NCBI RefSeq assembly: GCF_017916365.1
Contig: NZ_JAFMSU010000001.1
Span: 1,302,001 to 1,366,000, forward strand
Origin: Rufibacter roseolus
GTDB lineage: Bacteria > Bacteroidota > Bacteroidia > Cytophagales > Hymenobacteraceae
Length of the DNA stretch: 64,000 nucleotides
Reading direction: 5' to 3'
Positions 741 through 56,487 of the stretch are shown here, piece by piece (within the stretch, counting starts at the first letter, position 1; each line of letters begins with the position of its first letter). Below the pieces are notes generated by a model that worked only from the letters and a program-made list of their open reading frames with translations, did not search any database and had not been told where the DNA came from. Made by a program: the position numbers and the translations under genes.

Positions 741-775
741 CTAAGGCCGATTTCTGAAAAACAGGCTCTAAACGC
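741..775. repeat. Dispersed palindrome, copy 1 (decayed left arm)
   Basis: Core 'GGCCGATTTCTGAAAAACAG' followed by GCTCTAAACG. It lies between the 3' ends of the converging genes 383-694 and 868-1890. It belongs to the window-wide family of about 40-bp imperfect palindromes (see findings). Confidence 0.65.
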
Positions 776-802
776 CTCTCTAAATTTGAGTCCTGCAAAA
801 GT

Positions 803-840
803 AGAAATCCCCGCGTAAAATGGTTTACGCGGGGATTTCT
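803..840. terminator. Bidirectional hairpin terminator
   Basis: A perfect 17-bp inverted repeat (803-819 with 824-840) around a 4-base loop. AGAAA lies on the left edge and TTTCT on the right, so a short U-tract forms in either direction. It sits between the converging membrane-protein gene and the GH5 gene and probably serves both. It is unrelated in sequence to the dispersed palindromes. Confidence 0.85.
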
Positions 841-867
841 GTTGTAAAGCTGGTTTGAACACCCAGG

Positions 868-1890
868 CTAAGGCTGTGTTTTCTCTTGTTTGGCTTTCTC
901 CAGAAGTTGCTGCCTAACCAGCTGACCGGAGGCGCTGATGCTGGCTTCGGGCCACTGGCCGGGGGCGTTGGTGCCGGGTTTCAGGGCCGAGGCTGCTTCG
1001 TCTTTGTTTGCCACGGACCAGTTGCACCACGAGATCTGGTGCTGGTCCAGGAAAGCCCACCAAGCTTTGGCTTCGGCCTCGTCTACCTTTCCGTTGCCGT
1101 CGGCGGCGCAGGTCCCGAACTCGGTCACGAACAGCGGTGCGCCTTTTGCAATGGCTTTGGAAGCGATGTTGCGGAGTTCCTGTTTGTGGGTGGCGGCGTA
1201 GTAGTGCAGGGTGTAGGCAATGTTGCGGGCGTTGATGGGGTTCTCCGCCGCCTCGTCTACCCGCTGTGACCACATTCTGGTGCCGCAGACAATAACGTTA
1301 TCGGGATCGTGCTTCCGGATTTCTGCAATGATGGTCTCGTGGTAAGGTTTGATCTGGGTGGCCCAGTCAGCGTCTTGCAGGGGCTCGTTATACGGCTCGT
1401 AGATCACGTTGGGGTACTCTCCGTAGCGCTGGGCCATCTCCCCGAAGAACGCTTTGGCGGCCTCGGTGTGCTTGTGCGCCTCATGGTCGTGCCAGTCAAT
1501 GATGACGTAAATGCCCTCTTTGATGGCGGCTTCCACCACCGTGATCACCTTCTGCTTCTCGGCTTCGGGGTTCTTGAGGTATCCGCCCATGTCCACGCCC
1601 ATGGCGGCCCGCACCACGGTATTCTGCCAATCGTCTTTCAGCCATTTCACCGTGGCCGGATGATAGAAACTGCCCTGCCACTGGCTCCAGAAAAAAGACA
1701 TACCCCTGAGTTGCACCGCTTTCCCGTTCTGGTCTACCAGGTGCGTCCCCACAATGCTCAGTTGTCCGTGTTGCTCCACCGGCGTCTGTACCGCGGCAGG
1801 TTTATCCGGTACGGTGCTTTTGCACCCAAAACAAACTACCGCCGCCAGTAACACGGCGATGGTAAGGTACAGGAAATGCTTATTATTCAT
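868..1890 (-). CDS. GH5 endoglucanase, lipoprotein
   Basis: A 340-residue glycoside hydrolase family 5 enzyme, probably an endo-beta-1,4-glucanase (retaining mechanism). The N-terminus is a lipoprotein signal with the probable acylated Cys at 23 ('CFGC'). The catalytic barrel follows from about residue 40. Visible family motifs are 'VIIDWHDH' (129-136), the acid/base Glu169 in 'YEPYNEP', 'LHYYA' (228-232) and the nucleophile Glu257 in 'FVTEFGT'. The length fits a single GH5 domain without a CBM. As a lipoprotein it probably sits on the outer membrane. It lies next to a GH3 glucosidase on the same strand and near a GH9 and a sugar importer, which together suggest cellulose or mixed beta-glucan degradation. 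Mannanase activity is possible but less likely. Confidence 0.9.
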   Translation of the reverse strand: MNNKHFLYLTIAVLLAAVVCFGCKSTVPDKPAAVQTPVEQHGQLSIVGTHLVDQNGKAVQLRGMSFFWSQWQGSFYHPATVKWLKDDWQNTVVRAAMGVDMGGYLKNPEAEKQKVITVVEAAIKEGIYVIIDWHDHEAHKHTEAAKAFFGEMAQRYGEYPNVIYEPYNEPLQDADWATQIKPYHETIIAEIRKHDPDNVIVCGTRMWSQRVDEAAENPINARNIAYTLHYYAATHKQELRNIASKAIAKGAPLFVTEFGTCAADGNGKVDEAEAKAWWAFLDQHQISWCNWSVANKDEAASALKPGTNAPGQWPEASISASGQLVRQQLLEKAKQEKTQP

Positions 1891-1930
1891 AGAAGGAGGT
1901 GAGGTTTGGTTCTGAGAAAGGTTGGCTTTT

Positions 1931-1965
1931 TTAAGGCTGATTTCCGGAAAACGGCCCCTAAACAG
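1931..1965. repeat. Dispersed palindrome, copy 2
   Basis: 'AAGGCTGATTTCCGGAAAAC' followed by GGCCCCTAAAC. It lies 5' of the GH5 gene, just beyond the terminator hairpin of the GH3 gene. Family member, imperfect. Confidence 0.7.
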
Positions 1966-1995
1966 CTTGTCAACAAAGATTTTTTAAGCCAAAAG

Positions 1996-2057
1996 AAACA
2001 AGCTTTCCGTTTCGGGGCTGCTTTTGGGAAAGTGGGCCCTAAACGGAAAGCTTGTTT
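1996..2057 (-). terminator. Terminator hairpin of the GH3 gene; dispersed palindrome, copy 3
   Basis: The outer arms form a perfect 17-bp inverted repeat (1996-2012 with 2041-2057). They enclose a degenerate family core, GGGGCTGCTTTT-ggg-AAAGTGGGCCC. It begins 13 bases after the GH3 stop and ends in a T-rich tract on the minus strand (after position 1996), so it should act as a terminator. Confidence 0.75.
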
Positions 2058-2069
2058 ACAGGATATCGG

Positions 2070-4376
2070 TTATTGCAGGGTCACCACGGTTTTCTGGTCG
2101 CCTACCATCAGGTCGAAGGCGCCGGGCTCGGTTACCCATTTGCCGGCCTCGTTCACGAAAGCCAGGTCTTTGGCGGAGATGGTGAAGCTCACTTCTTTCT
2201 CCTCGCCGGGCTGCAGAGACACTTTGGAGAAAGCTCTCAGGCGTTTGGCAGACGGGGTGATGCTGGCGTACTGGTCGTGGCTGTAGAGTTCCACTGCTTT
2301 CTTGCCGGCCTTGCTGCCGGTGTTCCGCACCCGCACAGTTACCTTTAGGTTGTCATTGTTACCGAAGGTGGTTTTGTCTACGCGCAGGTCAGAGAAAGCG
2401 AAAGTGGTGTAGCTCAAACCGTGCCCGAACGGCCACTGCGGGTTGAAGCCACGGTTTCCGGCGGCGTTAGGAATGTCCTCGCGGATGATCTCGGTGCCTT
2501 TGTGGTCATAGGTCAGCACGTCGCCGGAGAATCTTGGGTAAGTGAAAGGCAATACGCCGTCTGGGTTATAGTCTCCGAACAGCACATCGGCAATCGCCGC
2601 GGCCCCGAAGGTAGCCGGACGGTAAGCCATCACAATTGCATCGGCCAACGGCTCCACTGAAGAAAGCACACGTGGTCTGCCTTCCAGCAATACAATGATT
2701 ACCGGTTTGCCGGTTTCTTTGGCGGCTCTTACCAGGGCTAGTTGGTTTTCCTCCAGGTCAAGGTCATCAATCACACCAGGGCTCTCGGCGTAGGCTTTCT
2801 CGCCTAGGCAAAGCACGATGGCCTGGGCCTGGGCAGCGTCTCTTTTCAGCTGGGCCACGCTGTAGTTGGCGGCGTTGCTGAATTCAGCCACAGAACGGGA
2901 GATCACATTGTTCTTCCCGATTTCGGCCACTAGGCCTTGGATCACGGTTTTGGCTTTGGCTGGGTACTGGGTCTCATCGGTTCCTTGCCAGATGTAAGAC
3001 CAGCTGCCGTGTAATGCCGCCAGGGTGTTGGCCGTAGGGCCGGCTACCACAATCTTGGAAGTCTTTTTAAGCGGCAGTACCTGGTTGTTGTTTTTCAATA
3101 GGGTGATGCTTTCCAGGGCCGACTGCAGTGATACCTGGTCAAACTCTGCTTTGTGAATGGTGGTTTTCAAGGCTGCTTTTGGTCTCACCTGCTCAAACAA
3201 GCCTAATTTCTTCTTTAGGGCCAGGATGCGGCGCACCGAGGTGTTGATACGGTCCTCAGTGATGGTGCCTTCTTTCACCAGGGCCACCAGGTGGTCATAG
3301 AAAGACAAATCCATAGGCACCATGCTCATGTCCAGGCCGGCATCCACGGCCATGCGCACCGCTTCTTTAGGCGTGGCGGCTACTTTGTGGCGGGTGTGCA
3401 GACGGATTACGTCTTCCCAGTCAGACACGGCCACGCCTTCAAAGCCCAGTTCGTTCCGCAGGATTTGGGTCAGGTAGTACTTGCTGCCGTGCACCGGTAC
3501 GCCGTTGATCTCGCCGGAGTTGATCATGACAGTAGAAGCGCCGGCTTCCACGGCCGCTTTGAACGGCGGCAGGAAAATCTCGCGCAGCATCTGCTCCGGA
3601 ATGTAAGAAGGCGTGCGGTCTTTACCGGTAGAAGGGTAGGAGTAGCCCAGGAAGTGCTTCATACAGGCGGCCACCGTGAAATCCGGACCTTTGCCGTTCT
3701 GCTCATAGCCTCTGATGGCGGCGGCGCCCATGGTTTTCACAACAAACACGTCTTCGCCGAAGGTTTCCTCGAAACGCGGCCACAGCGGCTGACGGCCCAC
3801 GTCCAATACCGGGTCAAAATTCCACGGAATACCGGCGGCACGCGTTTCCAGGGCGGTGATCTGGGCCAGGCGGTTCACCAACTCGGGGTTACGGGTGGCG
3901 GCCATGCCGATGTTGTGCGGGTAAAGGGTGGTGCCGGCCAGGTAGTTGTTCCCGTGGATGGCGTCAATGCCGTAGATCACCGGGATTTTCAGGCGGGTTT
4001 TGTCGGTCACGTCATGGATGGCGTTCAGGACGGTGTGCCACTCGTCAATGGTGTAAGCCCGGCCTTTCACGTTCAGAATGGAGCCGATATGGTGGTTCAC
4101 CAGCACATTCCGCAGCTTGGCGGTGTCTACGGTGGCCGCTTCGCTGTCTTTCAGGATAAGGTCAATGGTGAGCTGCGTCATCTGCCCTACTTTTTCCTCC
4201 ACGGTCATTCTGGAGAGCAGGTCCTCAATCTGCTGGTCGCGGGCCTGGGTGGCCGGGGCGGTGCTGGTGGCCGCAGACATGGAAGCTTCTGGTTTGGCTG
4301 ACTGTCCCGTCTGGGTAGAACTGCAGGCCTGCAGCCCTAGCGCCAACACCAAAGCCATTGGGGTAAGGTATCTCAT
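2070..4376 (-). CDS. GH3 beta-glucosidase (beta-glucan exohydrolase type), lipoprotein
   Basis: A 768-residue family 3 glycoside hydrolase releasing glucose from beta-linked gluco-oligosaccharides. I chose the ATG at 4376 because it begins a clean lipoprotein signal (acylated Cys18 in 'LQAC'); the frame is open to 4508 but the extra residues are not signal-like. The N-terminal barrel has 'IPVIYGIDAIHG' (131-142), 'KHF' (240-242) and the nucleophile Asp319 in 'GVAVSDWED'. The alpha/beta domain and a fibronectin-III-like C-terminal domain follow. The 'YGIDAIHGNNY' signature is that of the plant-ExoI/cellodextrinase branch rather than BglX. It is divergent from the HTCS at 4958 and followed on the same strand by the GH5, which fits a role as the terminal glucosidase of the cellulose cluster. 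Confidence 0.93.
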   Translation of the reverse strand: MRYLTPMALVLALGLQACSSTQTGQSAKPEASMSAATSTAPATQARDQQIEDLLSRMTVEEKVGQMTQLTIDLILKDSEAATVDTAKLRNVLVNHHIGSILNVKGRAYTIDEWHTVLNAIHDVTDKTRLKIPVIYGIDAIHGNNYLAGTTLYPHNIGMAATRNPELVNRLAQITALETRAAGIPWNFDPVLDVGRQPLWPRFEETFGEDVFVVKTMGAAAIRGYEQNGKGPDFTVAACMKHFLGYSYPSTGKDRTPSYIPEQMLREIFLPPFKAAVEAGASTVMINSGEINGVPVHGSKYYLTQILRNELGFEGVAVSDWEDVIRLHTRHKVAATPKEAVRMAVDAGLDMSMVPMDLSFYDHLVALVKEGTITEDRINTSVRRILALKKKLGLFEQVRPKAALKTTIHKAEFDQVSLQSALESITLLKNNNQVLPLKKTSKIVVAGPTANTLAALHGSWSYIWQGTDETQYPAKAKTVIQGLVAEIGKNNVISRSVAEFSNAANYSVAQLKRDAAQAQAIVLCLGEKAYAESPGVIDDLDLEENQLALVRAAKETGKPVIIVLLEGRPRVLSSVEPLADAIVMAYRPATFGAAAIADVLFGDYNPDGVLPFTYPRFSGDVLTYDHKGTEIIREDIPNAAGNRGFNPQWPFGHGLSYTTFAFSDLRVDKTTFGNNDNLKVTVRVRNTGSKAGKKAVELYSHDQYASITPSAKRLRAFSKVSLQPGEEKEVSFTISAKDLAFVNEAGKWVTEPGAFDLMVGDQKTVVTLQ

Positions 4377-4619
4377 TGTTTTCGGTTGGTTGATTTTGGT
4401 CGGAAGATGCCCTGCCCCGGAGTGCCCGAAACAGGGATTGTACAAGTATAAAGCATCTTTTTGAGGAGACCTTCGGCCATGGGCCATTCTTAACAAATGG
4501 ACCACCAAAAGGAAACATTTGATACTTCAGGGGCGCTGCCAAAGCCGCTACCTTTGACCACAGTGGGAGTTTGGCGCCTGCCTCTATGGTTAACATTCTT
4601 TCGCCGGTCCAGTCAAAAA

Positions 4620-4650
4620 TTGGGGTTCTGTTAGCAAAGTCGTAACTTTT
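4620..4650 (+). promoter_or_regulatory. Possible Bacteroidota promoter for the HTCS gene
   Basis: TTGG (4620-4623), a 19-base spacer, then TAACTTTT (4643-4650), which matches TAnnTTTG except for the last base. If used, transcription would start near 4657 and leave a leader of about 300 nt that contains both dispersed palindromes of this region. Confidence 0.35.
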
Positions 4651-4680
4651 GGGAGTTTAAACCTCAAAATGGCAAGCATC

Positions 4681-4716
4681 CGTTTCAAGGCAGTTTTCTA
4701 CAAAACGGCTTAAAAG
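4681..4716. repeat. Dispersed palindrome, copy 4
   Basis: CGTTTCAAGGCAGTTTT, loop CTAC, then AAAACGGCTTAAAAG. Imperfect stem. It lies in the divergent GH3/HTCS region, so it cannot be a simple 3'-end terminator. Confidence 0.65.
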
Positions 4717-4812
4717 CTTTCCTTGATTAGGGAACGTTTTGCAGGATTGGTCTGTGTTGGAGGGGTTAGAATGATAACTGCCTCATTGGGTTTTAGTTAA
4801 TTCTGAAAGGCC

Positions 4813-4850
4813 CCGTTTTAGTGCCGGTTTTCTGAAAATAGGCCTCAAAG
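4813..4850. repeat. Dispersed palindrome, copy 5
   Basis: CCGTTTTAGTGCCGGTTTT, loop CTG, then AAAATAGGCCTCAAAG. Second copy in the divergent region, about 110 bases upstream of the HTCS start. Confidence 0.65.
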
Positions 4851-4957
4851 ACAAAGGAAAATAAAGGTGGGTTCCGCCTGCCGGTGAAACATCAAATAAA
4901 TGGCCCCAGCCCATGGCAAGGGGTGGGTTTAAGATAAATTTCCACTGAAGATCAGGT

Positions 4958-7900
4958 ATGGGAGTAAAAAGATGGGTAGTGGTAGTGCTGGTGCTGCTGG
5001 GGTCGTTGGCCCAACAGAGTCAGGCGCAGGCGCCGGGGCAGTTCAGGTTTTCGTCTATAGACATGGACCAGGGCTTGTCCAGCAACCAGGTGAAGTGTTT
5101 CCTTAAAGACAGCCGCGGCTACCTGTGGGTGGGCACCGTCTCGGGTGGTCTGAACCGCTATGACGGCAATAAACTCAAGGTCTACAAGTCCCAGTCCAAC
5201 GACACCACTTCGCTCATCAGCAATGATGTGACCAAGCTGCTGGAAGGCCCCGACGGGCGCATCTGGGTACAGACCTTCCAGGGCAATTGCATCTTTGACC
5301 CGCAGACCGAGCGGTTCCACCGAAACCCCCAGGCCTTTTATAAACAATATAAACTGCCGGCATCCAGCGTGGTGCAGGATATCCTCAAAGACCGGGAAGG
5401 TAACTTCTGGTTTGTAGTGTCGGGCCAGGGACTGGTGAAGTACAATGTGCGCAATAAAAGCTCTGTGCACCTCAAGCACGCTTTCTCTGCCAAAAGCAGC
5501 CTGAGCACGAACAATATATCGTCCATCGGCCAGACTTCCCGCGGCGATATCTGGATGGTGCACCAAAATGGCCTCCTGGAGCGGCTGGACGGCAAAACCC
5601 TCAAAGTAGTAGAGCGCAACGACGACATCTACCGCAAATACAGCCAGGAAACGCAGGACTACGCCCTCACCGTGGACACTAATAATGACCTGTGGCTCTA
5701 CGTGCGCGAAAGGGAAGGAGGCGTTTACTTTTACTCCAGCGCAGGTAAAACGCTCCAGCATTTCCACAAAGACTCTCCGGGACTGCAGCTCAACAACAAC
5801 CTGGTGCGCGGCATCATTGAAGGCGCCCCGGGCAAGATCTGGGTGGGCACCGATCACGGCGGCATCAACGTCATTGACAAGAAGAACCTCACGGTCCAGT
5901 ACATCCGGCACGACAAGGAGTCTGACCAGAGCTTGGTGGATAACAGCATCCACTCTCTGTACAAAGACAACCAGGGCATTATCTGGGTGGGTACCTTCAA
6001 GAAAGGCATCAACTACTACCACCAGAACATCATCCGGTTTCCGCATGTCAAGTCCCAGTCCTCGGTGCCGGGCAGCCTGCCGTTTGATGATGTGAACGCC
6101 TTTGCCGAAGACGCTAAAGGCAATCTCTGGATTGGCACGAACGGTGCCGGTCTGCTTTATTTAGACCGGGCCACCGGCCAGTACACCCGCTACACGCATA
6201 ACCCCAAAGACGCTGCCAGCCTCTCCAGCGACATCATTGTGAGCCTGCTCATTGACCGCAACCAGAAACTGTGGGTGGGCACCTACCTTGGCGGGCTTTC
6301 GCGGCTGGAGGGCCAGAAGTTCGTGCATTATAAAAATGAGCCGGGAAATCCCCACAGCCTCTCTGACAACAACATCTGGGAACTGTACGAAGACACCAAG
6401 GGCAACCTCTGGATTGGCACGCTCAGGGGCGGGCTGGAACTCTTTGATCCGAAGCTGAACGGGTTCATCCACTCCAAAGGCGGTGCAGGCAAATTCCCCA
6501 ACCACTGCGATTACATCAGCTCCATCACCGAGGACCGGCAGGGGAATCTCTGGGTGGGCGGCGGCTACGGTATTGACGTCTTCAACAAGGAAACGGGCAA
6601 GAGTACTTTTTTCCTCCATGATCCCAAGAACCCCAAGAGCCTCCTTAGCAACAACATCACCTATATAAAAAGAGACAGCCGGAATAACATTTGGATCGCG
6701 ACCACCGAGGGGCTGGACCTGTACAATGAGCGTGATAACTCTTTCACCCATTTCACGGTCAAAGACGGGCTGCCCAACAACACCATCACCACCATTCTAG
6801 AAGACAAAAGCGGTAACCTGTGGGTGAGCACCCATAACGGCATCGCCAACGTCATTGTCAAGCAACAGGGAAAGGGGTACCGCTATGATTTCGTAAGCTA
6901 CGATGAGCAGGACGGCTTGCAGGGCAAAGCCTTCAATGAGAACGCGGCCCTGAGTACCCGCCGGGGGGAACTGATCTTTGGCGGCTCAAACGGTTTCAAC
7001 ATTTTCACCCCTAGCCGGATTGAGAAGAACAAGGTACCGCCCAAGGTGGTGTTCACAGATTTTCAGTTGTTCAACCGGAGCCTGGTGCCCAACCAACCCG
7101 TTGATGACCGCGTGATTCTGGAAAAGTCCATCTCTGATACCCGCGAAATAACCCTGCAACATGACGAGAACGTGTTCTCCATTGAGTTTGCGGCCCTGAA
7201 CTACATTCACCCGGAGAAGAACCGCTACCGCTACAAACTGGAAGGCTTTGACAAAGAGTGGCACCCTATCACTGACGGAAACCGGAAGATCACCTACACC
7301 AACCTGGACCCAGGTGAGTATAAGTTCAAGGTGATGGCCGCTAACAATGACGGCGTCTGGACCCCCACCCCGGCCACCATGAAGATTACTGTGCTGGCAC
7401 CTTTCTGGCAAACGCCCCTGGCTTTTCTGCTCTATGCGGCGGTAGTAGTGGTGGGGCTGGTTATGATCCGGCGGATAGAGCTCAAAAAGGCCATTGCCAG
7501 GTTTGAGATGGAGCAGGAGAGAAGGGAGGCCCGGCAGTTGCACGAGCTGGATATCCTGAAAATCAAGTTCTTCACCAACGTGAGCCATGAGTTCCGGACG
7601 CCGCTTACCCTCATTCTGGCGCCTATCGAGAAACTGCTAAAAACCACCACTGACCCCGAGGTGCATCAGCAGTACCAGATGATCAACAAGAATGCCCGGC
7701 GCCTCCTGAACATGGTGAACCAGCTGCTTGATTTCAAAAAGATGGACGTGGAGGACATTAAACTCTCGCCGTCTGAGGGCAATGTGGTGGCTTTTGTGGA
7801 AGAAACTGTCCATTCCTTCGGGGACCTTTCTGATAAGAAGCATATTTCCCTTTCCTTCCAGACCGAGGTGCCCGAACTGCACACGTCCTTCGACAAGGAT

Positions 7901-9136
7901 AAACTGGAGAAGATCCTGTTCAACCTGCTCTCCAACGCCTTTAAGTTCACCCCGGAGCACGGCCGAATCTCGGTGGAGCTCAACTGCCATAACAATGACT
8001 CCTCTTCAGAGGGGATTAAGATCCTTGAGATCAAAGTCAAAGACAGCGGCATTGGCATTGCCAAAGAAAACCACAAAAAGATCTTTGAGCGCTTCTTCCG
8101 CGACACCGTGCCCAGCCACATGGTGAACCAGGGCAGCGGCATCGGGTTGGCGTTGGTGCAGGAGTTTGTGCACCTGCACGGGGGCGTGATCTCCGTGGAG
8201 AGTGCCCCTGGCCAAGGAAGCTCCTTTACCGTGACCATTCCGGTGAAAGAACTAAGCAAGGCGCAGGCAAGCGAGGAGATTCCGGTGGAAGAAATCAAGG
8301 AGCCAAGCCAGCCGGTGCAGGCAGAACCTGTGAAACCCCAGAAACCGGTGTTCGCCGACAACAAACCCGTAGTGCTGGTGGTGGAAGACAACGACGATTT
8401 CAGGTTCTACCTCAAAGACAGCCTGAAGCCGCATTTCAACATACTGGAGGCCCGTGACGGCAAGGAGGGCTGGCAAAAAGCGCTCTTCCACCTGCCAGAC
8501 CTCATTGTGAGCGACCTCATGATGCCTGAGGTAGACGGCATGGAGTTCTGCCAGAAGATAAAGGCCGACCCCAGAACCTCGCAGATCCCGTTTGTGCTGC
8601 TTACCGCCCACGCCTCAGACGAGAAGAAACTCAAAGGCCTGGACGTGGGCGCCAATGATTACCTAACCAAGCCCTTCAACTTTGATATGCTATTGTCCCG
8701 CATCCGGAACCTGATTTCCCAGCGGGCGCTTTTGCAGAAGGTGTTTGAGAAGAAGATTAGCGTGCAGGCCAGCGAGAACGAGATTGTGTCCCTGGACGAT
8801 AAACTCATCCGGAAAGCCATCAAGTACGTGGAGGACAACCTGTCCAACCCAGACCTGTCGGTGGAGGAGATGAGCAGGGAACTGGGCGTGAGTCGGGTGC
8901 ACCTGTATAAGAAGATGATGGCCATCACGGGGCAGTCGCCGGTGGAATTCATCCGGAAGATTCGCCTGCAGCATGCGGCCCAGTTCCTGGAGAAAAGCCA
9001 GCTTACGGTGGCCGAGGTGGCTTACAAGGTGGGCTTCAACAACCGGAAATACTTCACCAAGTACTTCAAGGAGGAGTACAACATACTGCCCTCTAATTAC
9101 GCCGAAAGTCTGCATAACGAGAAAAAGGAATCTTAA
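4958..9136 (+). CDS. Hybrid two-component system sensor/regulator (HTCS)
   Basis: A 1392-residue single-polypeptide sensor typical of Bacteroidota glycan regulation. The order of domains is: signal peptide (1-25); periplasmic two-component-regulator propeller repeats ending in 'LWVGT/IWVGT' motifs (about 30-720); a Y_Y_Y domain (about 725-805); one membrane segment (about 818-838); histidine kinase with phospho-acceptor His877 in 'NVSHEFRTPLTLIL'; ATPase with N-box 'LLSNAFKF' and G-boxes 'DSGIGIA' and 'GSGIGLAL'; a receiver with Asp1186 in 'VSDLMMPEVDG' and a downstream 'LTKPF'; and an AraC-type double HTH (about 1285-1388). All catalytic residues are present, so it should be functional. It lies between GH3/GH5 and GH9/MFS genes and presumably induces them in response to a beta-gluco-oligosaccharide. 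No SusCD pair is adjacent, which is unusual for an HTCS. Confidence 0.96.
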   Translation: MGVKRWVVVVLVLLGSLAQQSQAQAPGQFRFSSIDMDQGLSSNQVKCFLKDSRGYLWVGTVSGGLNRYDGNKLKVYKSQSNDTTSLISNDVTKLLEGPDGRIWVQTFQGNCIFDPQTERFHRNPQAFYKQYKLPASSVVQDILKDREGNFWFVVSGQGLVKYNVRNKSSVHLKHAFSAKSSLSTNNISSIGQTSRGDIWMVHQNGLLERLDGKTLKVVERNDDIYRKYSQETQDYALTVDTNNDLWLYVREREGGVYFYSSAGKTLQHFHKDSPGLQLNNNLVRGIIEGAPGKIWVGTDHGGINVIDKKNLTVQYIRHDKESDQSLVDNSIHSLYKDNQGIIWVGTFKKGINYYHQNIIRFPHVKSQSSVPGSLPFDDVNAFAEDAKGNLWIGTNGAGLLYLDRATGQYTRYTHNPKDAASLSSDIIVSLLIDRNQKLWVGTYLGGLSRLEGQKFVHYKNEPGNPHSLSDNNIWELYEDTKGNLWIGTLRGGLELFDPKLNGFIHSKGGAGKFPNHCDYISSITEDRQGNLWVGGGYGIDVFNKETGKSTFFLHDPKNPKSLLSNNITYIKRDSRNNIWIATTEGLDLYNERDNSFTHFTVKDGLPNNTITTILEDKSGNLWVSTHNGIANVIVKQQGKGYRYDFVSYDEQDGLQGKAFNENAALSTRRGELIFGGSNGFNIFTPSRIEKNKVPPKVVFTDFQLFNRSLVPNQPVDDRVILEKSISDTREITLQHDENVFSIEFAALNYIHPEKNRYRYKLEGFDKEWHPITDGNRKITYTNLDPGEYKFKVMAANNDGVWTPTPATMKITVLAPFWQTPLAFLLYAAVVVVGLVMIRRIELKKAIARFEMEQERREARQLHELDILKIKFFTNVSHEFRTPLTLILAPIEKLLKTTTDPEVHQQYQMINKNARRLLNMVNQLLDFKKMDVEDIKLSPSEGNVVAFVEETVHSFGDLSDKKHISLSFQTEVPELHTSFDKDKLEKILFNLLSNAFKFTPEHGRISVELNCHNNDSSSEGIKILEIKVKDSGIGIAKENHKKIFERFFRDTVPSHMVNQGSGIGLALVQEFVHLHGGVISVESAPGQGSSFTVTIPVKELSKAQASEEIPVEEIKEPSQPVQAEPVKPQKPVFADNKPVVLVVEDNDDFRFYLKDSLKPHFNILEARDGKEGWQKALFHLPDLIVSDLMMPEVDGMEFCQKIKADPRTSQIPFVLLTAHASDEKKLKGLDVGANDYLTKPFNFDMLLSRIRNLISQRALLQKVFEKKISVQASENEIVSLDDKLIRKAIKYVEDNLSNPDLSVEEMSRELGVSRVHLYKKMMAITGQSPVEFIRKIRLQHAAQFLEKSQLTVAEVAYKVGFNNRKYFTKYFKEEYNILPSNYAESLHNEKKES

Positions 9137-9139
9137 AGT

Positions 9140-9175
9140 CGTTTTGAGGCTGTTTTCTGAAAATCAGGCCGCAAT
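9140..9175. repeat. Dispersed palindrome, copy 6
   Basis: CGTTTTGAGGCTGTTTT, loop CTG, then AAAATCAGGCCGCAATC. It begins 4 bases after the HTCS stop codon. Confidence 0.7.
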
Positions 9176-9368
9176 CATTCGGTTTGATAGGCACGGGTTA
9201 ACCGGAGAGGGACAGATTTGAAACATTTGGTGTACCCCGGCGCGAGTGGGCTTGCCTATCTTAGCCAACCAGAAAACAGCCTTTCTGAAGGGTATAAATG
9301 TCCCATCCAGAAGGCTATTCCTCCATGTCTTTGTCCTTGGGCAAAGAAATAAATTGAAAAGAACAACC

Positions 9369-11162
9369 ATGCGTCATCTCTACAAAACCTTGGGCGGAGC
9401 CCTGCTCTGCCTTTCTTTCTCCTGTGCCCAGGCGCAGAAACCCTTGTCAAGCCAGGAAACCATCCGGCTGAATCAGATCGGTTTTTACCCGAATGCCTCC
9501 AAAATAGCCGTGGTGGTGGGCGAGAACAAAGGCGGCAAGTTCTTCGTGAAAACCGCCGATGGATCTAAAACGGTCTTTACCGGCCAACTCACCGATGCCA
9601 AAGCGGCCGAACTTTCCGGCAAACCCACGCGGTTAGCGGATTTCAGCGGTTTCAGCGGGACTGGGTCTTACGTGCTGGAGATTCCGGGGGTAGGCAAGTC
9701 CTATCCGTTTGACATAAAGCCACAGGTGCACGGACCAGTGGCGGCCGCGGCCATCAAGGGCTTTTACTTCCAGCGTACGGCCATTGAACTGCCGGAGAAA
9801 TACGCCGGGAAATGGCATCGGCCGGCTGGCCACCCAGATGATAAGGTATTAGTGCACCCTTCGGCAGCCTCGGCCCAGCGCCCGGCCGGCACGGTGATTT
9901 CCTCTCCCAAAGGGTGGTATGATGCCGGTGACTACAACAAATACATTGTGAACAGCGGCATCACCATGGGCACGCTGCTCTCGTCTTACGAGGATTTCCC
10001 TAAGTTCTACGCCGCCCAGAAACTGAACATCCCCGAGAGCGGGAACGCCGTGCCGGATCTGCTGGATGAGGCCCTCTGGAACCTGCGGTGGATGCTGACC
10101 ATGCAAGACCCCAACGATGGCGGCGTGTACCACAAACTGACCAACCCTGCATTTGACGGCATGGTGATGCCCCACGAGGCCACCAAACCCCGGTACGTGG
10201 TGCAGAAAGGAACCGGCGCAGCCCTGAACTTCGCGGCCGTGATGGCGCAGGCCAGCCGCGTGTACAAGAACTTTCCCAAAGAGTTTCCGGGTTTGTCTGA
10301 TTCCTGCCTCACCGCCGCCACCAAAGCTTGGGAATGGGCCCAGAAAAACCCCAACGTGGCCTACGAGCAGGATGACATGAACAAGAGCTTCGACCCGGAT
10401 GTGACCACCGGCGCCTATGGCGACAAGGACTTCAACGATGAACGTCTGTGGGCCGCCGCCGAGCTCTACACCACTACCCAGAAAGACAGCTACTACCAGG
10501 CCGTGAACGTGCTGCCCGATGCCAGGATGCCGCTGCCCAGCTGGGCACAGGTGCGTCTGCTAGGCTACTATACCCTGCTGCGGAACAAGAACCAGAAAGG
10601 CGCCGCCCAGAAGGACCTGCCGGAGATCAGAAAAAGGCTGTTGCAGTCCGCCGATGACATGGTGACGGGCGCCGCCAACGCTTCTTACAGAATGGTCATA
10701 GGCCGGGCCAAGGAAGATTACGTGTGGGGCAGCTCCTCGGTGGCCGCGAACCAGGGCATTCTGCTCGTGCAGGCGTACCAACTCACCGGCGACAAGAAAT
10801 ACCTGCAGGCCGCGCTCTCCAACCTGGATTACCTCCTGGGCCGCAATGCCGTGGGCTACTCCTTTGTGACCGGCTTTGGGGAGAAAAGCACCATGCACCC
10901 ACATCACCGTCCTTCCATCGCCGATGGCGTGGCGGAGCCGGTGCCGGGTTTGTTGTCCGGCGGTACCAACAGCAATGCCAACAAGCAGGATAAGTGCGAA
11001 GGCTACACCGCCACCTCCCCAGATGAGATGTACCTGGACGTGGATTGCTCTTACGCCTCCAATGAAATCGCCATCAACTGGAACGCCCCGCTGGTGTATT
11101 TGACCGGTGCCATGGAGGCCCTGCAGCAACAGGCCGGTTTTGCCGCGAAAAGCACGAAGTAA
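9369..11162 (+). CDS. GH9 cellulase (endo- or processive glucanase)
   Basis: A 597-residue inverting family 9 glycoside hydrolase cutting beta-1,4-glucan. I chose ATG 9369 because it starts a signal peptide ending near 'SCAQAQ' (residues 18-23); the frame is open from 9246 but the extra N-terminus is not signal-like. An Ig-like CelD_N domain follows (about 30-118, starting 'IRLNQIGFYP'), then the (alpha/alpha)6 catalytic domain. 'GWYDAGDYNKYI' carries the paired catalytic Asp185/Asp188. 'HHRPS' and the final 'SNEIAINWNAPLVYL' with the acid Glu566 complete the active site. There is no CBM and no type IX sorting domain. It lies downstream of the HTCS and upstream of the sugar importer on the same strand, making it the probable main chain-cutting enzyme of the cluster. 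Confidence 0.95.
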   Translation: MRHLYKTLGGALLCLSFSCAQAQKPLSSQETIRLNQIGFYPNASKIAVVVGENKGGKFFVKTADGSKTVFTGQLTDAKAAELSGKPTRLADFSGFSGTGSYVLEIPGVGKSYPFDIKPQVHGPVAAAAIKGFYFQRTAIELPEKYAGKWHRPAGHPDDKVLVHPSAASAQRPAGTVISSPKGWYDAGDYNKYIVNSGITMGTLLSSYEDFPKFYAAQKLNIPESGNAVPDLLDEALWNLRWMLTMQDPNDGGVYHKLTNPAFDGMVMPHEATKPRYVVQKGTGAALNFAAVMAQASRVYKNFPKEFPGLSDSCLTAATKAWEWAQKNPNVAYEQDDMNKSFDPDVTTGAYGDKDFNDERLWAAAELYTTTQKDSYYQAVNVLPDARMPLPSWAQVRLLGYYTLLRNKNQKGAAQKDLPEIRKRLLQSADDMVTGAANASYRMVIGRAKEDYVWGSSSVAANQGILLVQAYQLTGDKKYLQAALSNLDYLLGRNAVGYSFVTGFGEKSTMHPHHRPSIADGVAEPVPGLLSGGTNSNANKQDKCEGYTATSPDEMYLDVDCSYASNEIAINWNAPLVYLTGAMEALQQQAGFAAKSTK

Positions 11163-11192
11163 CCAAAGCAGTTTTCCCGTTAGGGTTTTTAT

Positions 11193-11235
11193 GAGGCTTC
11201 AAGGATAGAAATTGCTTTCTGCCTTTGAAGCTTTT
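11193..11235 (+). terminator. Terminator of the GH9 gene
   Basis: Hairpin with outer arms GCTTCAAGG and CCTTTGAAGC (one bulge) and a perfect inner stem AGAAA/TTTCT around TTGC, followed by TTTTC. It lies 30 bases after the GH9 stop. Confidence 0.65.
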
Positions 11236-11402
11236 CATTTATAAATCTGCTAAATTGTTTTACTAAGCTGCAAACGGATTTTCTGACGGCTTTTATGGCT
11301 AAAATCTGAAGATAAAGCAGTATACTTGAAGATTCTATGGACAGAAAGCCGCTACTACCTATCGGTTGCTTTTCTGAAGGGTAGAGGCAATACGGCGGCG
11401 GC

Positions 11403-11441
11403 TGGTTTTGGGCTTGTTTTTGCAAAAATCGACCTGAAACA
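11403..11441. repeat. Dispersed palindrome, copy 7 (degenerate)
   Basis: TGGTTTTGGGCTTGTTTTT, loop GC, then AAAAATCGACCTGAAACAG. The weakest match among the numbered copies, but arm order and spacing are those of the family. Confidence 0.5.
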
Positions 11442-11590
11442 GAAACCGCCGGGGGGAGAATTGGTGAAGTACTATTGCCGATGCCTCGCTGTCCGTAATG
11501 CCTAACCCTTCCCGAGGAAAAGCTTGGGTAGCCCGCTTCTGAAAACCAGAACTTTAACGTTTCATCCCCTTACCAAACAAAACAAACCAT

Positions 11591-13018
11591 ATGGCAGGAA
11601 TTTCCAGCAGCGCGGCCTCGGCTCCCGCGGTAACAGAGCCCGGTACCACCAGCAAGAGCTACACCGGTGCCTTGATGACGGTGACCATGCTCTTCTTCAT
11701 GTGGGGCTTCATCACATGCATGAATGACATCCTCATCCCCAAATTGCAGCAGGTTTTCACGCTGCAGAACTGGCAGGCCATGCTCATCCAGACGGCCTTC
11801 TTCGGGGCTTATTTCATTGTCTCCCTTCTGTACTTTATCTTCTCGGTGACCAAAGGCGACCCTATCCTGAAGATCGGATACAAGAACGGGATCATTGTGG
11901 GATTGGCGGTGACGGCCATCGGCTGCCTGCTGTTCCTGCCTGCCGCCGATTCTCATTCCTACGGCTTGTTCCTGGCCGCTTTGTTCGTGCTGGCCTCGGG
12001 CATCACGGTGCTGCAGATCACGGCCAACCCGTACGTGTCCATCCTAGGTCCGCCGGAGTCTTCCTCCAGCCGCATGAACATGACCCAGGCCCTGAACTCT
12101 TTCGGGACGACCATTGCGCCTATCATCGGGGGATATCTTATTTTCGATCAGGTGTCTAATGATGCCGCCACCGCGGATTCAGTGAAGATGCCGTACATCG
12201 GCCTGGCCATTACTTTGATTGTGATTGCGGTGATTATCAAACTGGCCCGTTTGCCCCGCCTCACCGGCGATGGTACCGCGGTGGTGGCCGGCTCTGGCGC
12301 CCTGCAGCACAAGCACCTGGTGCTGGGGATTATCTGTATTTTCATGTACGTGGGCGGCGAGGTGGCCGTGGGCAGCATGCTCATCAACTACTTCAAACTG
12401 CCGCAGATTGCGGGTCTGGACGAGTCTGAGGCCAAGCACTTCCTGTCGTTTTACTGGGGCGGGGCCATGATCGGCCGTTTCTTCGGGGCTGTGGCGCTGG
12501 CGCAGTTCCGCAACAACTCGCTTAAGTACGTGATCATGGCCGTGATCGCGGCCGTGACCTTCGGGACCGTGTACGCCATCTATGACCTGAACCAGGCGCT
12601 CATCATCCTGGGGCTGATTGCCGCCAACTTTGTGGTGTTGCTGCTGGGTGGTTTCATCCCGAACCGCACGGTGGGTCTTTACGCCACCGCTGTGATCGTG
12701 CTGCTTCTGATCGGTACCTTCGGCCAAGGCGCCGTGGCCATGTGGGCGGTGATCGGCATCGGGTTGTTCAACTCCATCATGTTCCCTACCATCTTCGACT
12801 TAGCCATCAAAGGCTTGGGCGTGCACACGAGCCAGGGTTCGTCGCTGCTGGTGATGGCCATCGTGGGCGGGGCTATTGTGCCGCCGCTGCAGGGCGCCGT
12901 GGCCGATGTGACGGGCAACGTGCAGCTCTCCTTCATTGTGCCCCTGCTCTGCTACCTCTACATTGTTTTCTACGGCTTCCGAGGCTACCGCACCCGCGAC
13001 CACAGGTTGGTAGACTAG
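11591..13018 (+). CDS. Sugar MFS transporter (FucP/GluP-type)
   Basis: A 475-residue inner-membrane proton-coupled sugar importer of the major facilitator superfamily, FHS branch (FucP, GluP, NagP). About 12 hydrophobic helices can be traced. The first carries the branch signature 'FFMWGFITCMNDILIP' (near residues 35-51), and 'ANPYVSILGPPESSSSRMN' follows the fourth. Known members import L-fucose, glucose/galactose or N-acetylglucosamine. Its position beside GH5, GH3 and GH9 genes suggests glucose or a short cello-oligosaccharide, but this is inference. It replaces a SusCD pair as the only transporter of this cluster. A dispersed palindrome begins at the base after its stop codon. Confidence 0.9.
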   Translation: MAGISSSAASAPAVTEPGTTSKSYTGALMTVTMLFFMWGFITCMNDILIPKLQQVFTLQNWQAMLIQTAFFGAYFIVSLLYFIFSVTKGDPILKIGYKNGIIVGLAVTAIGCLLFLPAADSHSYGLFLAALFVLASGITVLQITANPYVSILGPPESSSSRMNMTQALNSFGTTIAPIIGGYLIFDQVSNDAATADSVKMPYIGLAITLIVIAVIIKLARLPRLTGDGTAVVAGSGALQHKHLVLGIICIFMYVGGEVAVGSMLINYFKLPQIAGLDESEAKHFLSFYWGGAMIGRFFGAVALAQFRNNSLKYVIMAVIAAVTFGTVYAIYDLNQALIILGLIAANFVVLLLGGFIPNRTVGLYATAVIVLLLIGTFGQGAVAMWAVIGIGLFNSIMFPTIFDLAIKGLGVHTSQGSSLLVMAIVGGAIVPPLQGAVADVTGNVQLSFIVPLLCYLYIVFYGFRGYRTRDHRLVD

Positions 13019-13059
13019 GCGTTTAGGGGCTGGTTTCAGGAAAACAGGCTCAAAACACC
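13019..13059. repeat. Dispersed palindrome, copy 8
   Basis: GCGTTTAGGGGCTGGTTT, loop CAGG, then AAAACAGGCTCAAAACACC. It directly abuts the transporter stop codon (13016-13018). Its loop reads CAGG where most copies read CTG or CCTG, so it appears inverted relative to most others. Confidence 0.7.
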
Positions 13060-13068
13060 TCCCTTTTT

Positions 13069-13116
13069 AAAGCAATCGGCCCGGGAAGATTTACTTCCTC
13101 CCGGGCCGATTGCTTT
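13069..13116 (+). terminator. Terminator of the MFS transporter gene
   Basis: Perfect 17-bp stem (13069-13085 with 13100-13116) with a GGCCCGGG centre and a 14-base loop, followed by TGTTTTTTG. A strong rho-independent terminator sitting just beyond the palindrome copy. Confidence 0.85.
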
Positions 13117-13155
13117 TGTTTTTTGTGGTTGAAAATGTATACCTTGGCCGCACGT

Positions 13156-13551: not shown

Positions 13552-13579
13552 ATGATCTCTGCGGAGAAAGCCGCCGGTT

Positions 13580-14170: not shown

Positions 14171-14257
14171 CCAAAGGCTTTTGTGAAAGGCAGCAGGTGA
14201 GAGGCTGCATTGTTCCAGAAAGAACCTTTTCCTATCATTGGCAAAACAACTGAACTT

Positions 14258-46894: not shown

Positions 46895-46933
46895 GCTGTT
46901 TTAAGGCTGTTTTTGAAAAATCAATCCAAAAGC
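46895..46933. repeat. Dispersed palindrome, copy 20
   Basis: GCTGTTTTAAGGCTGTTTTT, loop G, then AAAAATCAATCCAAAAGC. It lies within the 848-bp gap, well away from any gene end. Confidence 0.6.
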
Positions 46934-47090
46934 GCATCCCAGGTTTGAGCTGTTTTGGCCCAAGGATTGGAATAATGGAAGCTGCCAGGTGTGCGGAAAA
47001 CTGGTTTCGCTTCACTAATGGTCGGGCAGTACCAAGAGTCGGCTTAGTGCGTATCTGTAGAACAATGAAAAGGGTAAAAACCAGGGAGTT

Positions 47091-47132
47091 GGTGTTGAGA
47101 GGCTGCTTTTTAGAAAAGAGGCTCTAAACACC
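47091..47132. repeat. Dispersed palindrome, copy 21
   Basis: GGTGTTGAGAGGCTGCTTTT, loop TAG, then AAAAGAGGCTCTAAACACC. The outer arms GGTGTT/AACACC pair. It lies about 110 bases past the stop of the LuxR-type regulator. Confidence 0.65.
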
Positions 47133-50145: not shown

Positions 50146-50477
50146 CCCTTATCACAAATGAACCTGATACTCTTTCTCCAGGTCCGGCCATCCCAAGAAA
50201 AGAAATAGAAAATGCCGGGCTGAAGTACGCTAAGCGGTGGCTGTCCGTCTGTTCCCTTTTTAGAGATGAAGAGGAGCAAGCCAAAGAAAAGGGGGCAGCC
50301 AAAAAAGAGGCAGGCCGCAAGATGACCTTAATTTCCTGTAATTTTCTCTAATTCTGAAATATTCAGGCCAGAAATATAAGGTGTCATCATGCTCCCGTGC
50401 GGTTCAGGCTATAAAGCAAAGTCTTTTGGAAGGGCGTGTATGCCACGCCGGAAGCGCGGGAGAGGAGAAGCAGCGTT
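50146..50477. other. 332-bp intergenic region upstream of the LuxR-type regulator
   Basis: It contains the regulator promoter region and part of dispersed palindrome copy 22, which reaches into the acr3 gene. A near-consensus minus-strand -7 box lies at 50378-50371 (TATATTTC), but without a matching -33 box. No gene seen. Confidence 0.45.
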
Positions 50478-50516
50478 TTAAGCCTGATTTTCCTGAAACT
50501 TGCCCTTTTCAGGCGC
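50473..50516. repeat. Dispersed palindrome, copy 22, overlapping the acr3 3' end
   Basis: GCGTTTTAAGCCTGATTTT, loop CCTG, then AAACTTGCCCTTTTCAGGCGC. It covers the last 12 codons of acr3 and supplies its TAA stop (50480-50478 on the minus strand). Confidence 0.7.
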
Positions 50517-51587
50517 AGAGGTGAGCAGTGGTTCGGTTCCGTAGTATCTTCTCCTGAACCAGTAGGCCACGTTTACCAGCGCAATGAGTGCCGGAACCTC
50601 TATGAGCGGACCAACTACCCCGGCGAAAGCCTGCCCCGAGTTAAGCCCGAATACCCCAATGGCCACGGCAATAGCCAGTTCAAAGTTGTTGCCTGTAGCG
50701 GTGAAAGCCACCGAGGCGTTCTGCGCGTAATTCGCTCCCAAAGCTTTGCCCATGTAAATGCTTACCAGAAACATCACGGCAAAGTAGATCACCAGCGGCA
50801 CGGCAATGCGCAGCACATCCAGCGGAATGGTCACAATCAGGTTGCCTTTCAAACTGAACATCACCACAATGGTAAACAGCAGGGCCACCAACGTGATGGG
50901 GCTGATAGCCGGGATGAACTTCTGCGTGTACCAGGCATCGCCTTTGATACGGCGCAGGATGAGGCGCGATAAGAAGCCCAGCAGGAACGGAATACCCAGG
51001 TAAGTGAAAACGCTCTGCGCGATATCACCCATGCTGATGTCTACCACCTTGCCCTCCAGCCCGAACCAGGTGGGCAGCACCGTGATAAAAACGAAGGCGA
51101 ACACGCTGTAGAACAGCACCTGGAAAATGCTGTTGAAGGCCACCAGCCCGGCCGCGTACTCCCGGTCCCCCTCGGCCAGTTCATTCCAGACCAGCACCAT
51201 GGCAATGCAGCGGGCCAGCCCGATTAAGATAATCCCGATCATGTACTCGGGGTAGTCCCGCAGGAAAATGATGGCCAACAGAAACATAAGCACCGGCCCG
51301 ATGATCCAGTTCAGCACCAGCGACAGGGTAATGACTTTCACGTTGTCAAACACCCGGCCCAATTGCTCATACCGCACTTTCGCCAAGGGCGGATACATCA
51401 TCAGAATCAGGCCCGCCGCGATGGGTACGTTCACGGTACCCACCTGGAAGGTATTGATGACTTCCTCGGTGCCGGGGTACAGGTACCCCAGGAGCACCCC
51501 CGCGCCCATGGCCACAAAAATCCAGAGGGTAAGAAAGCGGTCCAGGGTGGAAAGCTTTTTCCTTTTATCTACAGTGCATTGGCTCAT
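50478..51587 (-). CDS. acr3: Arsenite efflux transporter, ACR3 family
   Basis: A 369-residue inner-membrane arsenite/proton antiporter of the ACR3 (BART superfamily) type, with about ten hydrophobic helices. The essential Cys is Cys127 in '[13 protein letters not shown]', and the conserved Glu sits in '[13 protein letters not shown]'. Both residues are required in studied Acr3 proteins. It is the last gene of the arsR-metallophosphoesterase-acr3 operon, 151 bases after the phosphoesterase gene with a palindrome copy in between. The last twelve residues are encoded by a copy of the dispersed palindrome, so the native C-terminus may have been rewritten by insertion or expansion of that element. 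Confidence 0.95.
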
Positions 51588-51650: not shown

Positions 51651-51695
51651 TTTCGTTTCAGGGCAGTTTTCCTCAAAATGGCCCCGAAACCGAAA
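51651..51695. repeat. Dispersed palindrome, copy 23
   Basis: TTTCGTTTCAGGGCAGTTTT, loop CCTC, then AAAATGGCCCCGAAACCGAAA. The outer arms TTTCG.TTTC / GAAAC.CGAAA pair. It lies between the metallophosphoesterase and acr3 genes. Confidence 0.7.
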
Positions 51696-55859: not shown

Positions 55860-55905
55860 GGCCGAAGGCAAGCCACAGCTTATTCATCATTGCCCTCAAA
55901 TAAAA

Positions 55906-55955
55906 GCGCTCAGTTTAGGGGCTGTTTTCCAGAAAACAGCCCCTAAACTGAGCGC
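55906..55955 (+). terminator. Terminator of GH92; dispersed palindrome, copy 24 (perfect)
   Basis: Perfect 23-bp stem (55906-55928 with 55933-55955) with loop CCAG, the longest perfect copy in the window. The core GGGGCTGTTTT / AAAACAGCCCC is flanked by CAGTTTA/TAAACTG. No long T-tract follows (AAAATGAG), so termination would rely on stem strength. Confidence 0.8.
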
Positions 55956-56095
55956 AAAATGAGTCTATTTGCAGGCTTGAGACTTACCCGAGATGTGGCC
56001 TGTATCTACTTTAAGGGAGCTCCGGGGTTTCTTGGAATGAAATACCTGACAATTTAAAATGACAGAAGTTGCTTTAGGTGGCTTACTTTTAAGGC

Positions 56096-56317
56096 ATGAA
56101 CAAGGAAAACAAGAAAGTAGCAAGAGTAGTCATATTTTTCATGCTGGTTTTTCTAGGTTTAATCACAAACCTTGCAGCTTCCATCTCTTTGCGTGATGAC
56201 AATGCGGTCAAAGTGCCTTTGCTTGTTATAGGATTCTTCACTGCCGTTTTTAGTTTCATTTTCCTAATTGGCGCTATCTTGTCTTTGATTATGAGTGGAA
56301 AGGATAGGAGTAAGTAA
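56096..56317 (+). CDS. Small two-helix membrane protein, hypothetical
   Basis: A 73-residue protein with two hydrophobic segments (about 10-28 and 43-65), a basic N-terminus ('MNKENKKVAR') and a charged tail, which fits a small inner-membrane protein. A/T-rich coding compared with neighbours. I do not recognise a family. It lies alone between the GH92 terminator and the GH43 gene. Confidence 0.5.
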   Translation: MNKENKKVARVVIFFMLVFLGLITNLAASISLRDDNAVKVPLLVIGFFTAVFSFIFLIGAILSLIMSGKDRSK

Positions 56318-56447
56318 ATCAGCATCAATCCTCCTCAGCATCTTTAGCAGTTAATTTAATTCTTTGACTAACGCTCACTTTTGGCCAACAGAGCATTGGA
56401 GTGTCGGTGTAGGAATCTGCAACAGGTAATAAGGTTTACCTCTCTTT

Positions 56448-56487
56448 AACTTAAAACAGGCTCAAACTTAAAACAGGCTCAAAACGC
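56448..56487. repeat. Tandem half-copies of the dispersed palindrome
   Basis: AACTTAAAACAGGCTCA occurs twice in direct tandem (56448-56464 and 56465-56481), then AAACGC. The unit is the right arm of the dispersed palindrome (AAAACAGGCTCAAAACG), and no left arm is present. Confidence 0.65.

Follow-up and report, generated by a model that had tools for sequence, protein, structure and literature searches.

Genus-specific 38-bp palindromes behind gene ends in Rufibacter as putative recognition sites of a DNA-binding protein

Introduction

Rufibacter roseolus belongs to the Hymenobacteraceae (Bacteroidota; Cytophagales). The current study concerns a family of short palindromes in a 64,000-nucleotide stretch of its genome (NCBI RefSeq assembly GCF_017916365.1, contig NZ_JAFMSU010000001.1, positions 1,302,001 to 1,366,000), which is called the window throughout and numbered from its first letter. 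Between 868 and 63543 the window resembles a polysaccharide-use region, with a GH5 cellulase, a hybrid two-component regulator, a GH92, a SusD-type and a TonB-plug protein recognised when nine open reading frames were tested. An original prediction held that palindromes of about 40 bp mark almost every transcription-unit boundary in the window, and offered four roles for them, i.e. a terminator family, a stabiliser of mRNA 3' ends, a nucleoid-protein site or an element mobilised by a RAYT, a transposase associated with repetitive extragenic palindromes (REPs). We find that the palindromes are concentrated past the 3' ends of genes and within convergent gaps, that most of those with alignable flanks persist at orthologous places in related species, and that pairing of the two arms is not the main conserved feature in most copies. 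We propose that they may be recognition sites of a putative DNA-binding protein.

Results

The repeating unit is a 38-bp dyad, consisting of an 18-nt half-site near CGTTTTNGGSCTGTTTTC, a free centre of 2 nt and the reverse complement of the half-site. The palindromic layout proposed originally is thus borne out, as 2 x 18 nt with a 2-nt centre; hits with a centre of 0, 1, 3 or 4 nt all coincide with 2-nt-centre sites read a step off. Further out, TTC on the 5' side and GAA on the 3' side are weakly preferred, which prolongs the symmetry. Sites were scored with a half-site matrix trained on the genome, with cuts at 20 and at 14 bits, and genes and gaps are our own predictions, called by a simple script and not by a standard annotator.

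Of the 25 places listed originally, 23 score 22.9-43.9 bits, with starts off by no more than about 12 bases. The remaining two are a weak copy over the 3' end of called gene 50478-51587 (50474-50511, 16.9 bits) and a half-copy at 56448, which falls below 14 bits. In the left part of the window, a copy in a convergent gap (737-774, 22.9 bits) is followed by copies at 1927-1964 (40.1 bits) and 2008-2045 (37.0 bits) and by two that lie in a divergent setting (4681-4718, 30.3 bits; 4814-4851, 30.6 bits). The copy at 9140-9177 (37.0 bits) starts 3 bp past the stop of a two-component hybrid gene (4958-9136), and that at 13020-13057 (43.9 bits) only 1 bp past the stop of an MFS gene (11591-13018). 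Further copies stand at 11404-11441 (33.9 bits), 13580-13617 (29.7 bits), 14968-15005 (35.3 bits), 18224-18261 (36.9 bits), 18340-18377 (31.0 bits), 20710-20747 (28.3 bits) and 23791-23828 (38.8 bits). The right part holds two near-perfect palindromes with 17 of 18 pairs, one at 32326-32363 (38.2 bits) and one at 34316-34353 (38.4 bits), the stem of which runs on into the flanks, as does that of a perfect palindrome with 18 pairs at 55912-55949 (39.9 bits). The other copies of this part are found at 36860-36897 (15 pairs, 35.8 bits), 36951-36988 (42.2 bits), 46897-46934 (38.6 bits), 47093-47130 (29.8 bits) and 51654-51691 (33.3 bits), together with one at 41820-41857 (36.6 bits), which stands between called genes 40137-41759 and 41941-43407 in a gap of 181 bp. 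This gap lies inside a run of genes on the same strand, and the earlier statement that no copy stands within an operon is therefore not secure.

The list was also incomplete, as nine more places of at least 14 bits had been missed, every one touching called genes. Six of these score 19.1-22.3 bits: one starts at 135; one at 18443-18480 (19.1 bits) overlaps called gene 18479-20632 by 2 bp; one lies within called gene 20916-23645 (23153-23190, 19.9 bits); one within called gene 23902-25632 (24165-24202, 22.3 bits), where a covariance model built on 22 window copies gives 30.8 bits at 24161-24205; one over the 5' end of the same gene (25619-25656, 20.2 bits); and one within called gene 27250-28764 (27964-28001, 19.9 bits). 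The other three, at 38518, 54231 and 58281, score 14.6-17.2 bits.

The family extends far beyond the window. In 400 kb of the same chromosome we counted 200 sites of at least 20 bits, with 0 in one Markov control, and a further 464 kb of this genome (G000:C1:1222001-1686000) and 400 kb of Rufibacter hautae hold 204 and 187 sites, again with 0 in the controls. Density is accordingly 0.50, 0.44 and 0.47 per kb across the three regions. Another genome of the genus, G001, has 187 sites in 397 kb. Under one common matrix the two regions of this genome, hereafter the own regions, yield 399 sites. For the 5.5-Mb genome as a whole, we estimate 2,319 sites from a count of the strict core pattern (GTTT N9 TTT N4 AAA N9 AAAC) and 2,547 from density; equivalent estimates are 2,298-2,590 for G001 and 1,217 for the more distant genome G009, the latter from the strict count only. 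Copies are spaced more evenly than the null predicts in each of the two own regions and not in G001, where contigs were joined. Strong half-sites are nearly always part of full dyads, as lone half-sites of at least 16 bits make up 10 of 268 and 13 of 248 (controls 2-5). A reading of the half-site as an uptake-type word was rejected because lone halves are rare, though slightly above the control.

The strict core pattern occurs 186-1,561 times in each of 16 genomes of the genus, and 0-3 times in 134 other Hymenobacteraceae of five other genera (reversed control 0-2). In an order-level sample of 109 genomes from other families, 108 had 0-6 strict matches; the remaining one, G252, a 72%-complete genome, had 15 (control 8), and these look like another repeat. 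G252 indeed bears a different, GTTTTGGGCAAATTTTGCCCAAAAC-like palindromic repeat. The covariance model matches 16 of 16 genus genomes at E<=1e-6, with 82-150 such matches among the 150 candidates scored in each, and has no match at this threshold in 13 genomes outside the genus. Therefore, the family is genome-wide and genus-wide and not a peculiarity of the window. Palindromes stand at matching spacings in two small contigs, L170 (7.5 kb, from G009; 3021/4299/5512) and L173 (7.3 kb, from this genome; 3132/4411/5624), at least two of those in L173 being inside open frames. We found no description of the Rufibacter family among open-licence full texts, and the window has 0 matches to Rfam families at gathering score.

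The palindromes are strongly concentrated between genes. In the 400-kb region 174 of 200 sites are centred outside called genes, where gaps account for 19.5% of bases, and the test set with the original prediction, whether the motif is commoner in intergenic than in coding DNA, came out in favour of the former: gaps totalling about 78 kb hold 174 sites and called genes totalling about 322 kb hold 26. Of the convergent gaps 39 of 53 hold a palindrome, as do 91 of 205 gaps between co-directional genes and 20 of 53 between divergent ones. The claim of a copy at almost every boundary was thus too strong; the preference for 3' ends is real. Per kb of gap, density falls from 4.0 (convergent) through 2.3 (co-directional) to 1.2 (divergent), and convergent gaps of at least 100 bp are nearly all occupied (32 of 36). 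When sites of at least 18 bits from the own regions, R. hautae and G001 were pooled, 76 of the 293 in co-directional gaps of 100-500 bp adjoined the upstream stop, compared to 11 adjoining the downstream start. Copies within genes are few and not due to chance: fully coding sites number 26, 21 and 24 in three regions, compared to a mean of 0 after codon shuffling with the score unchanged.

Most alignable sites persist between species. In an alignment to R. hautae based on the flanks only, 128 of 204 sites were alignable, with 121 in place, 7 below the cut and 0 absent. A more sensitive search placed 119 of 124 and 130 of 138 sites at the same position in the scans against R. hautae, again with 0 absent, and 71 of 94 and 75 of 89 in those against G009, with 7 of 94 and 0 of 89 absent; sites without alignable flanks (75, 36, 105 and 55) stand outside these four scans, and young copies may be among them. 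All 7 absences in G009 fall in alignment gaps of 74-196 bases, with no clean 38-bp step. Comparison of orthologous gene pairs gave a similar picture, with a palindrome in both, in neither or in one member of 83, 65 and 14 pairs for R. hautae and of 70, 42 and 12 pairs for G009, at a median protein identity of 88%. G001 provided only 18 pairs (9 both, 5 neither, 4 discordant) and G017 only 2. Within 9.1-18.5 kb of the window, where 12 of 16 fetched orthologous pieces were used, a motif of at least 14 bits was found in 4 of 9 gaps orthologous to that of the copy at 9140, in 6 of 7 for 11404, 5 of 5 for 13020, 2 of 2 for 13580 and 9 of 10 for 14968, and the copies at 18224, 18340 and 18443 each have a counterpart in 2 of 2 species. 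For two gaps of the window that lack a site, the motif is present in relatives, in 3 of 4 for the first and in 2 of 3 for the second, one of these only at 16 bits. The partial occupancy of orthologous gaps indicates that gain and loss of copies do occur.

What is kept within the sites is a small set of letters. Across 108 orthologous sites between genes, identity to R. hautae is 95-97% at the four core T/A pairs and 65-86% at other positions. Where the own copy carries the consensus letter, R. hautae retains it in 807 of 825 cases (97.8%) for the core T/A and in 775 of 931 (83.2%) for the other inner positions (P 2e-27); three other consensus T's are retained in 335 of 391 cases, with the core again higher (P 3e-15). 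The same contrast is seen against G009, with 90-93% at the core, 55-82% at other positions and 75% in the nearby flank. Alignment gaps against R. hautae affect 2.8% of the site and 8-9% of the sequence beside it. Since the core is kept at 97.8% and other inner letters at 83.2%, the core letters are judged to be under purifying selection. In the 464-kb region, 17 coding sites show 94% identity to R. hautae, compared to 84-91% in the adjoining sequence, and this conservation hints at selection on the DNA motif even within genes.

The persistence of sites and letters bears on the view that the palindromes are non-autonomous mobile elements of REP type which a RAYT or some other transposase continues to spread, and that they owe their location to being purged from genes and promoters. 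In favour of this view, similar copies outside genes run to thousands, RAYT-like Y1 transposase genes (PF01797) are found in 15 of 16 genus genomes (1-6 each where present), and the sharp genus boundary suggests an ancestral burst. Moreover, 6 of 11 near-perfect copies have no alignable R. hautae flanks, compared to 70 of 193 others. However, no aligned site was absent in three of the four scans above and the absences in the fourth lie in long gaps, and constraint limited to the core speaks against a decaying insert, which would lose letters evenly. RAYT genes are also poor in close copies: of 45 matches, 20 loci were fetched (L023-L042) and 18 measured, and a palindrome lies within 200 bp of the stop in 0 of 18 and within 200 bp of the start in 1 of 18, compared to 48% and 32% of genes. 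Within 500 bp the figures are 39% (RAYT) and 55% (genes) for stops and 50% and 43% for starts. Genome G007 has no RAYT match at E<=0.001 and yet has 607 strict copies. Furthermore, the base profile is symmetric around the centre, and the GTAG/CGTC tag is absent on both sides. Continuing mobility is in our view highly doubtful, and the suggestion that RAYTs mobilise the present copies is unsupported. A recent burst in G001 was considered because its copies are more uniform, and was rejected as G001 has an equal density of sites and none of its full copies is found more than twice in 397 kb.

A second dispersed repeat of about 200 bp, CCCTTTGAAGGG, occupies 15691-15893 of the window, with ends near CGTCCCCCTTTGAAGGGGGTAGG and CCTACCCCCTTCAAAGGGGGACG; it looks like a miniature inverted-repeat transposable element and has whole or partial matches many times in this and several other genomes of the Rufibacter group. 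It was rejected as a RAYT partner, as none of the 20 RAYT loci that were fetched contains its core word.

The palindromes could alternatively be RNA hairpins that end transcription or protect mRNA 3' ends in both directions, in accordance with their 3' location and with the occupancy of long convergent gaps. Hairpins kept for their structure should have arms that covary, and the mean number of Watson-Crick pairs is 11.0 of 18, compared to 10.6 after shuffling arms among the 399 copies (G001, 13.5 and 13.3). Arm pairing barely above column expectation suggests that most copies are not conserved RNA hairpins. In poorly paired own copies, G-U mismatches number 388 and A-C mismatches 343, which is not clear (P 0.10); the corresponding counts in five regions are 162/150, 226/193, 172/155, 90/82 and 148/142. 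After 30 of 128 orthologous sites with gaps were dropped, the remaining 98 contained 31 double changes, compared to 16 expected. A hairpin as the main constraint is nevertheless not supported for the bulk. An early covariation count on the 22 window copies had looked favourable, as had this excess of double changes, most of which, after a split by pairing, falls to the 20 of the 98 sites that are well paired, with a weak remainder in the others. These 20 contain 17 double changes, 14 of them pair-preserving (6.1 doubles expected), and the 78 poorly paired sites have 14, compared to 10.9 expected. About a fifth of the compared sites would, by this measure, behave as hairpins, and the remainder at most weakly.

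The signals around the copies are similarly divided. The 226 co-directional copies show no T-run immediately past the 3' arm; T is slightly in excess (up to 0.41) some 10-13 bases farther along. A strong hairpin lies at the upstream edge of 26 of the 226 and at the downstream edge of 6, compared to 34 of 1200 random gap positions; for a hairpin ending at the upstream edge, the palindrome's own T's can serve as its U-tract. Among 11 near-perfect copies of one region, several have longer stems and T-rich tails. In co-directional gaps of the own regions, classic terminators are commoner beside palindromes (54 of 159 gaps with a palindrome, 25 of 151 without, P 4e-4). A simple terminator scan of window positions 1-20000 found 25, compared to 24.6 expected. 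Copies in called genes and divergent gaps likewise do not suit a terminator. A minority of copies look like terminators or appear to be joined to them, and to this extent the proposed role as a terminator or 3'-end stabiliser holds; it does not extend to most copies, given their little covariation, the missing direct T-run and the copies in genes and divergent gaps. As an account of the whole family we consider it unlikely.

A third alternative is a loading site for a gyrase-type topoisomerase, comparable to BIME-2 (a bacterial interspersed mosaic element) of Escherichia coli, which would relieve supercoils behind genes. The order of densities, convergent over co-directional over divergent, suits this idea, as does the periodic AT content inside the site, which is strongest near 9.5-10 bp (amplitude 0.167 at 10 bp) and places AT tracts near helical phase. 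The motif is restricted to the genus, whereas gyrase is, to our knowledge, universal. The E. coli gyrase motif, as far as the available portion of its description goes, shows GC changes in phase, and its cleavage sites are enriched past the ends of operons that are transcribed, and both may be counted in favour; it is, however, about 130 bp long with periodic flanks (PMC6379681). The flanks of the Rufibacter sites, unlike those so described, are without AT period (amplitude at most 0.011 over 56 bases). The chance that these are gyrase sites appears very slim.

Discussion

The results of the current study lead us to favour, with moderate confidence, the view that the palindromes are genus-specific symmetric DNA recognition sites of a putative protein at the ends of transcription units. 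Half-site letters are conserved independently, spacing is fixed and the full dyad is the rule, with weak pairing signals beside them. Each site has four T/A tracts (TTT, TTT, AAA, AAA), two per half, roughly one helical turn apart. Tracts recurring at about 9.5-10 bp suit a symmetric protein that contacts one face of the helix. We infer a protein acting as a dimer or tetramer, either confined to Rufibacter or with a specificity newly acquired there, that would bind about 2,300-2,550 sites in this genome and might act at transcription-unit ends, e.g. as a road-block, an insulator or a nucleoid anchor. The family may have spread in the ancestor of the genus and have been recruited later, and a minority of copies may additionally have become true hairpins that serve as, or are fused to, an intrinsic terminator. 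Among the four roles offered originally, a protein-binding site fits best, as putative sites; the terminator role applies to a minority and the RAYT role is not supported for present copies.

A number of observations weigh against recognition sites of this kind, and some of them are the weak bulk signals that can be credited to hairpins. Covariation is seen at positions 5 and 6 and at three of the four flank positions (z 3.6-7.4), and 13 of 399 copies have 17-18 pairs, compared to 0.1% expected. Read in gene orientation, co-directional copies contain 412 G-U and 350 A-C mismatches (P 0.03), and 9 of the 14 double changes in the 78 poorly paired sites keep the pair (P 0.02 against one third). 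Among convergent gaps of the own regions, a classic terminator is present in 34 of 58 that bear a palindrome and in 14 of 17 that do not (P 0.09), and this apparent scarcity leaves room for some mutual replacement. Across the whole site, identity to R. hautae is 80%, compared to 81% in the intergenic flank, and only the core stands out. The 76 of 204 sites without alignable R. hautae flanks could include young copies. In the compared region, a palindrome is present in 24 of 33 gaps beside genes without an R. hautae counterpart and in 102 of 159 others, an equal frequency that simple inheritance cannot yet explain. Not all sites are at gene ends, with 26 of 200 in called genes and 20 of 53 divergent gaps occupied, and samples of three secondary contigs contained 2 sites in 45 kb. 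Finally, the genus shows no expansion of genes for HU/IHF, the sole binding proteins looked at, and by copy number.

Sites such as matS, parS and those of Noc and SlmA are dyad-symmetric, occur many times and have conserved contact letters, and each genome has much smaller numbers of them, which are not known to be linked to gene ends. The Rufibacter family shares their symmetry and conserved letters; it is far more numerous and lies mainly at gene ends. DNA uptake sequences are clade-specific, reach very many copies, are in some cases used as terminators and act as single words, unlike the Rufibacter motif, in which lone half-sites are rare. That uptake sequences can form terminators is mentioned in the accessible part of one paper (PMC2267715). 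HIP1 of cyanobacteria, in the section of its description available, is an 8-bp word (GCGATCGC) interspersed at very high copy number and linked to orphan methyltransferases (PMC4390886). It is alike as a high-copy interspersed palindrome of one lineage, and the Rufibacter family differs from HIP1, so described, in being a 38-bp degenerate dyad that is mostly intergenic. With bidirectional intrinsic terminators the family shares its 3'-end and convergent position, a minority of well-paired copies and some T-rich tails; unlike them, most of its copies have no direct U-tract and no clear covariation, and it also occurs in divergent gaps and called genes.

The closest likeness is to REP and BIME sequences. 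In the available part of one survey, these are short extragenic palindromes present in up to thousands of copies, mostly downstream of genes and in some cases within them, which carry a GTAG or CGTC tag, those of Bacteroidetes being CGTC-tagged (PMC3733652). At 0.44-0.50 copies per kb and with 174 of 200 intergenic, the Rufibacter family is likewise short, high-copy, mostly extragenic, downstream of genes and now and then inside them. It differs from REPs, as that portion of the survey presents them, in being untagged and symmetric with 18-nt arms and a 2-nt centre, in keeping core sequence over pairing, in keeping its places between species and in not closely flanking RAYT genes. The 2025 RepRanger survey, in the text available, names high-copy REP-type palindromes in Flavobacterium species and in Thermoflavifilum, and a term search of its main text did not find Rufibacter or Hymenobacter named (PMC12306157). 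Those Bacteroidota repeats are alike as high-copy palindromes and are set apart here by the taxa named, not by sequence. We class the family as REP-like in kind, yet working more like a family of protein sites, and three features of RAYT-REP membership fail in it.

High-copy palindromes of bacteria are commonly regarded as repeats that move or decay and are put to use now and then. In Rufibacter, many hundreds of copies in each genome keep their place between species, with key letters selected and the rest drifting. Going further, the palindromes could belong to a chromosome-architecture system private to the genus, in which a new and abundant protein on more than 2,000 fixed dyads would insulate genes by blocking read-through, the spread of supercoils or both, the sites being ancestral and held by selection; we put this forward tentatively, as a possibility that we do not expect to hold in full. 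In the reading that we prefer, i.e. recognition sites at transcription-unit ends, the family would offer a case, open to testing, in which a single genus has turned repeats into a regulatory or structural code that spans the chromosome, and it points to a putative new DNA-binding protein in Rufibacter.

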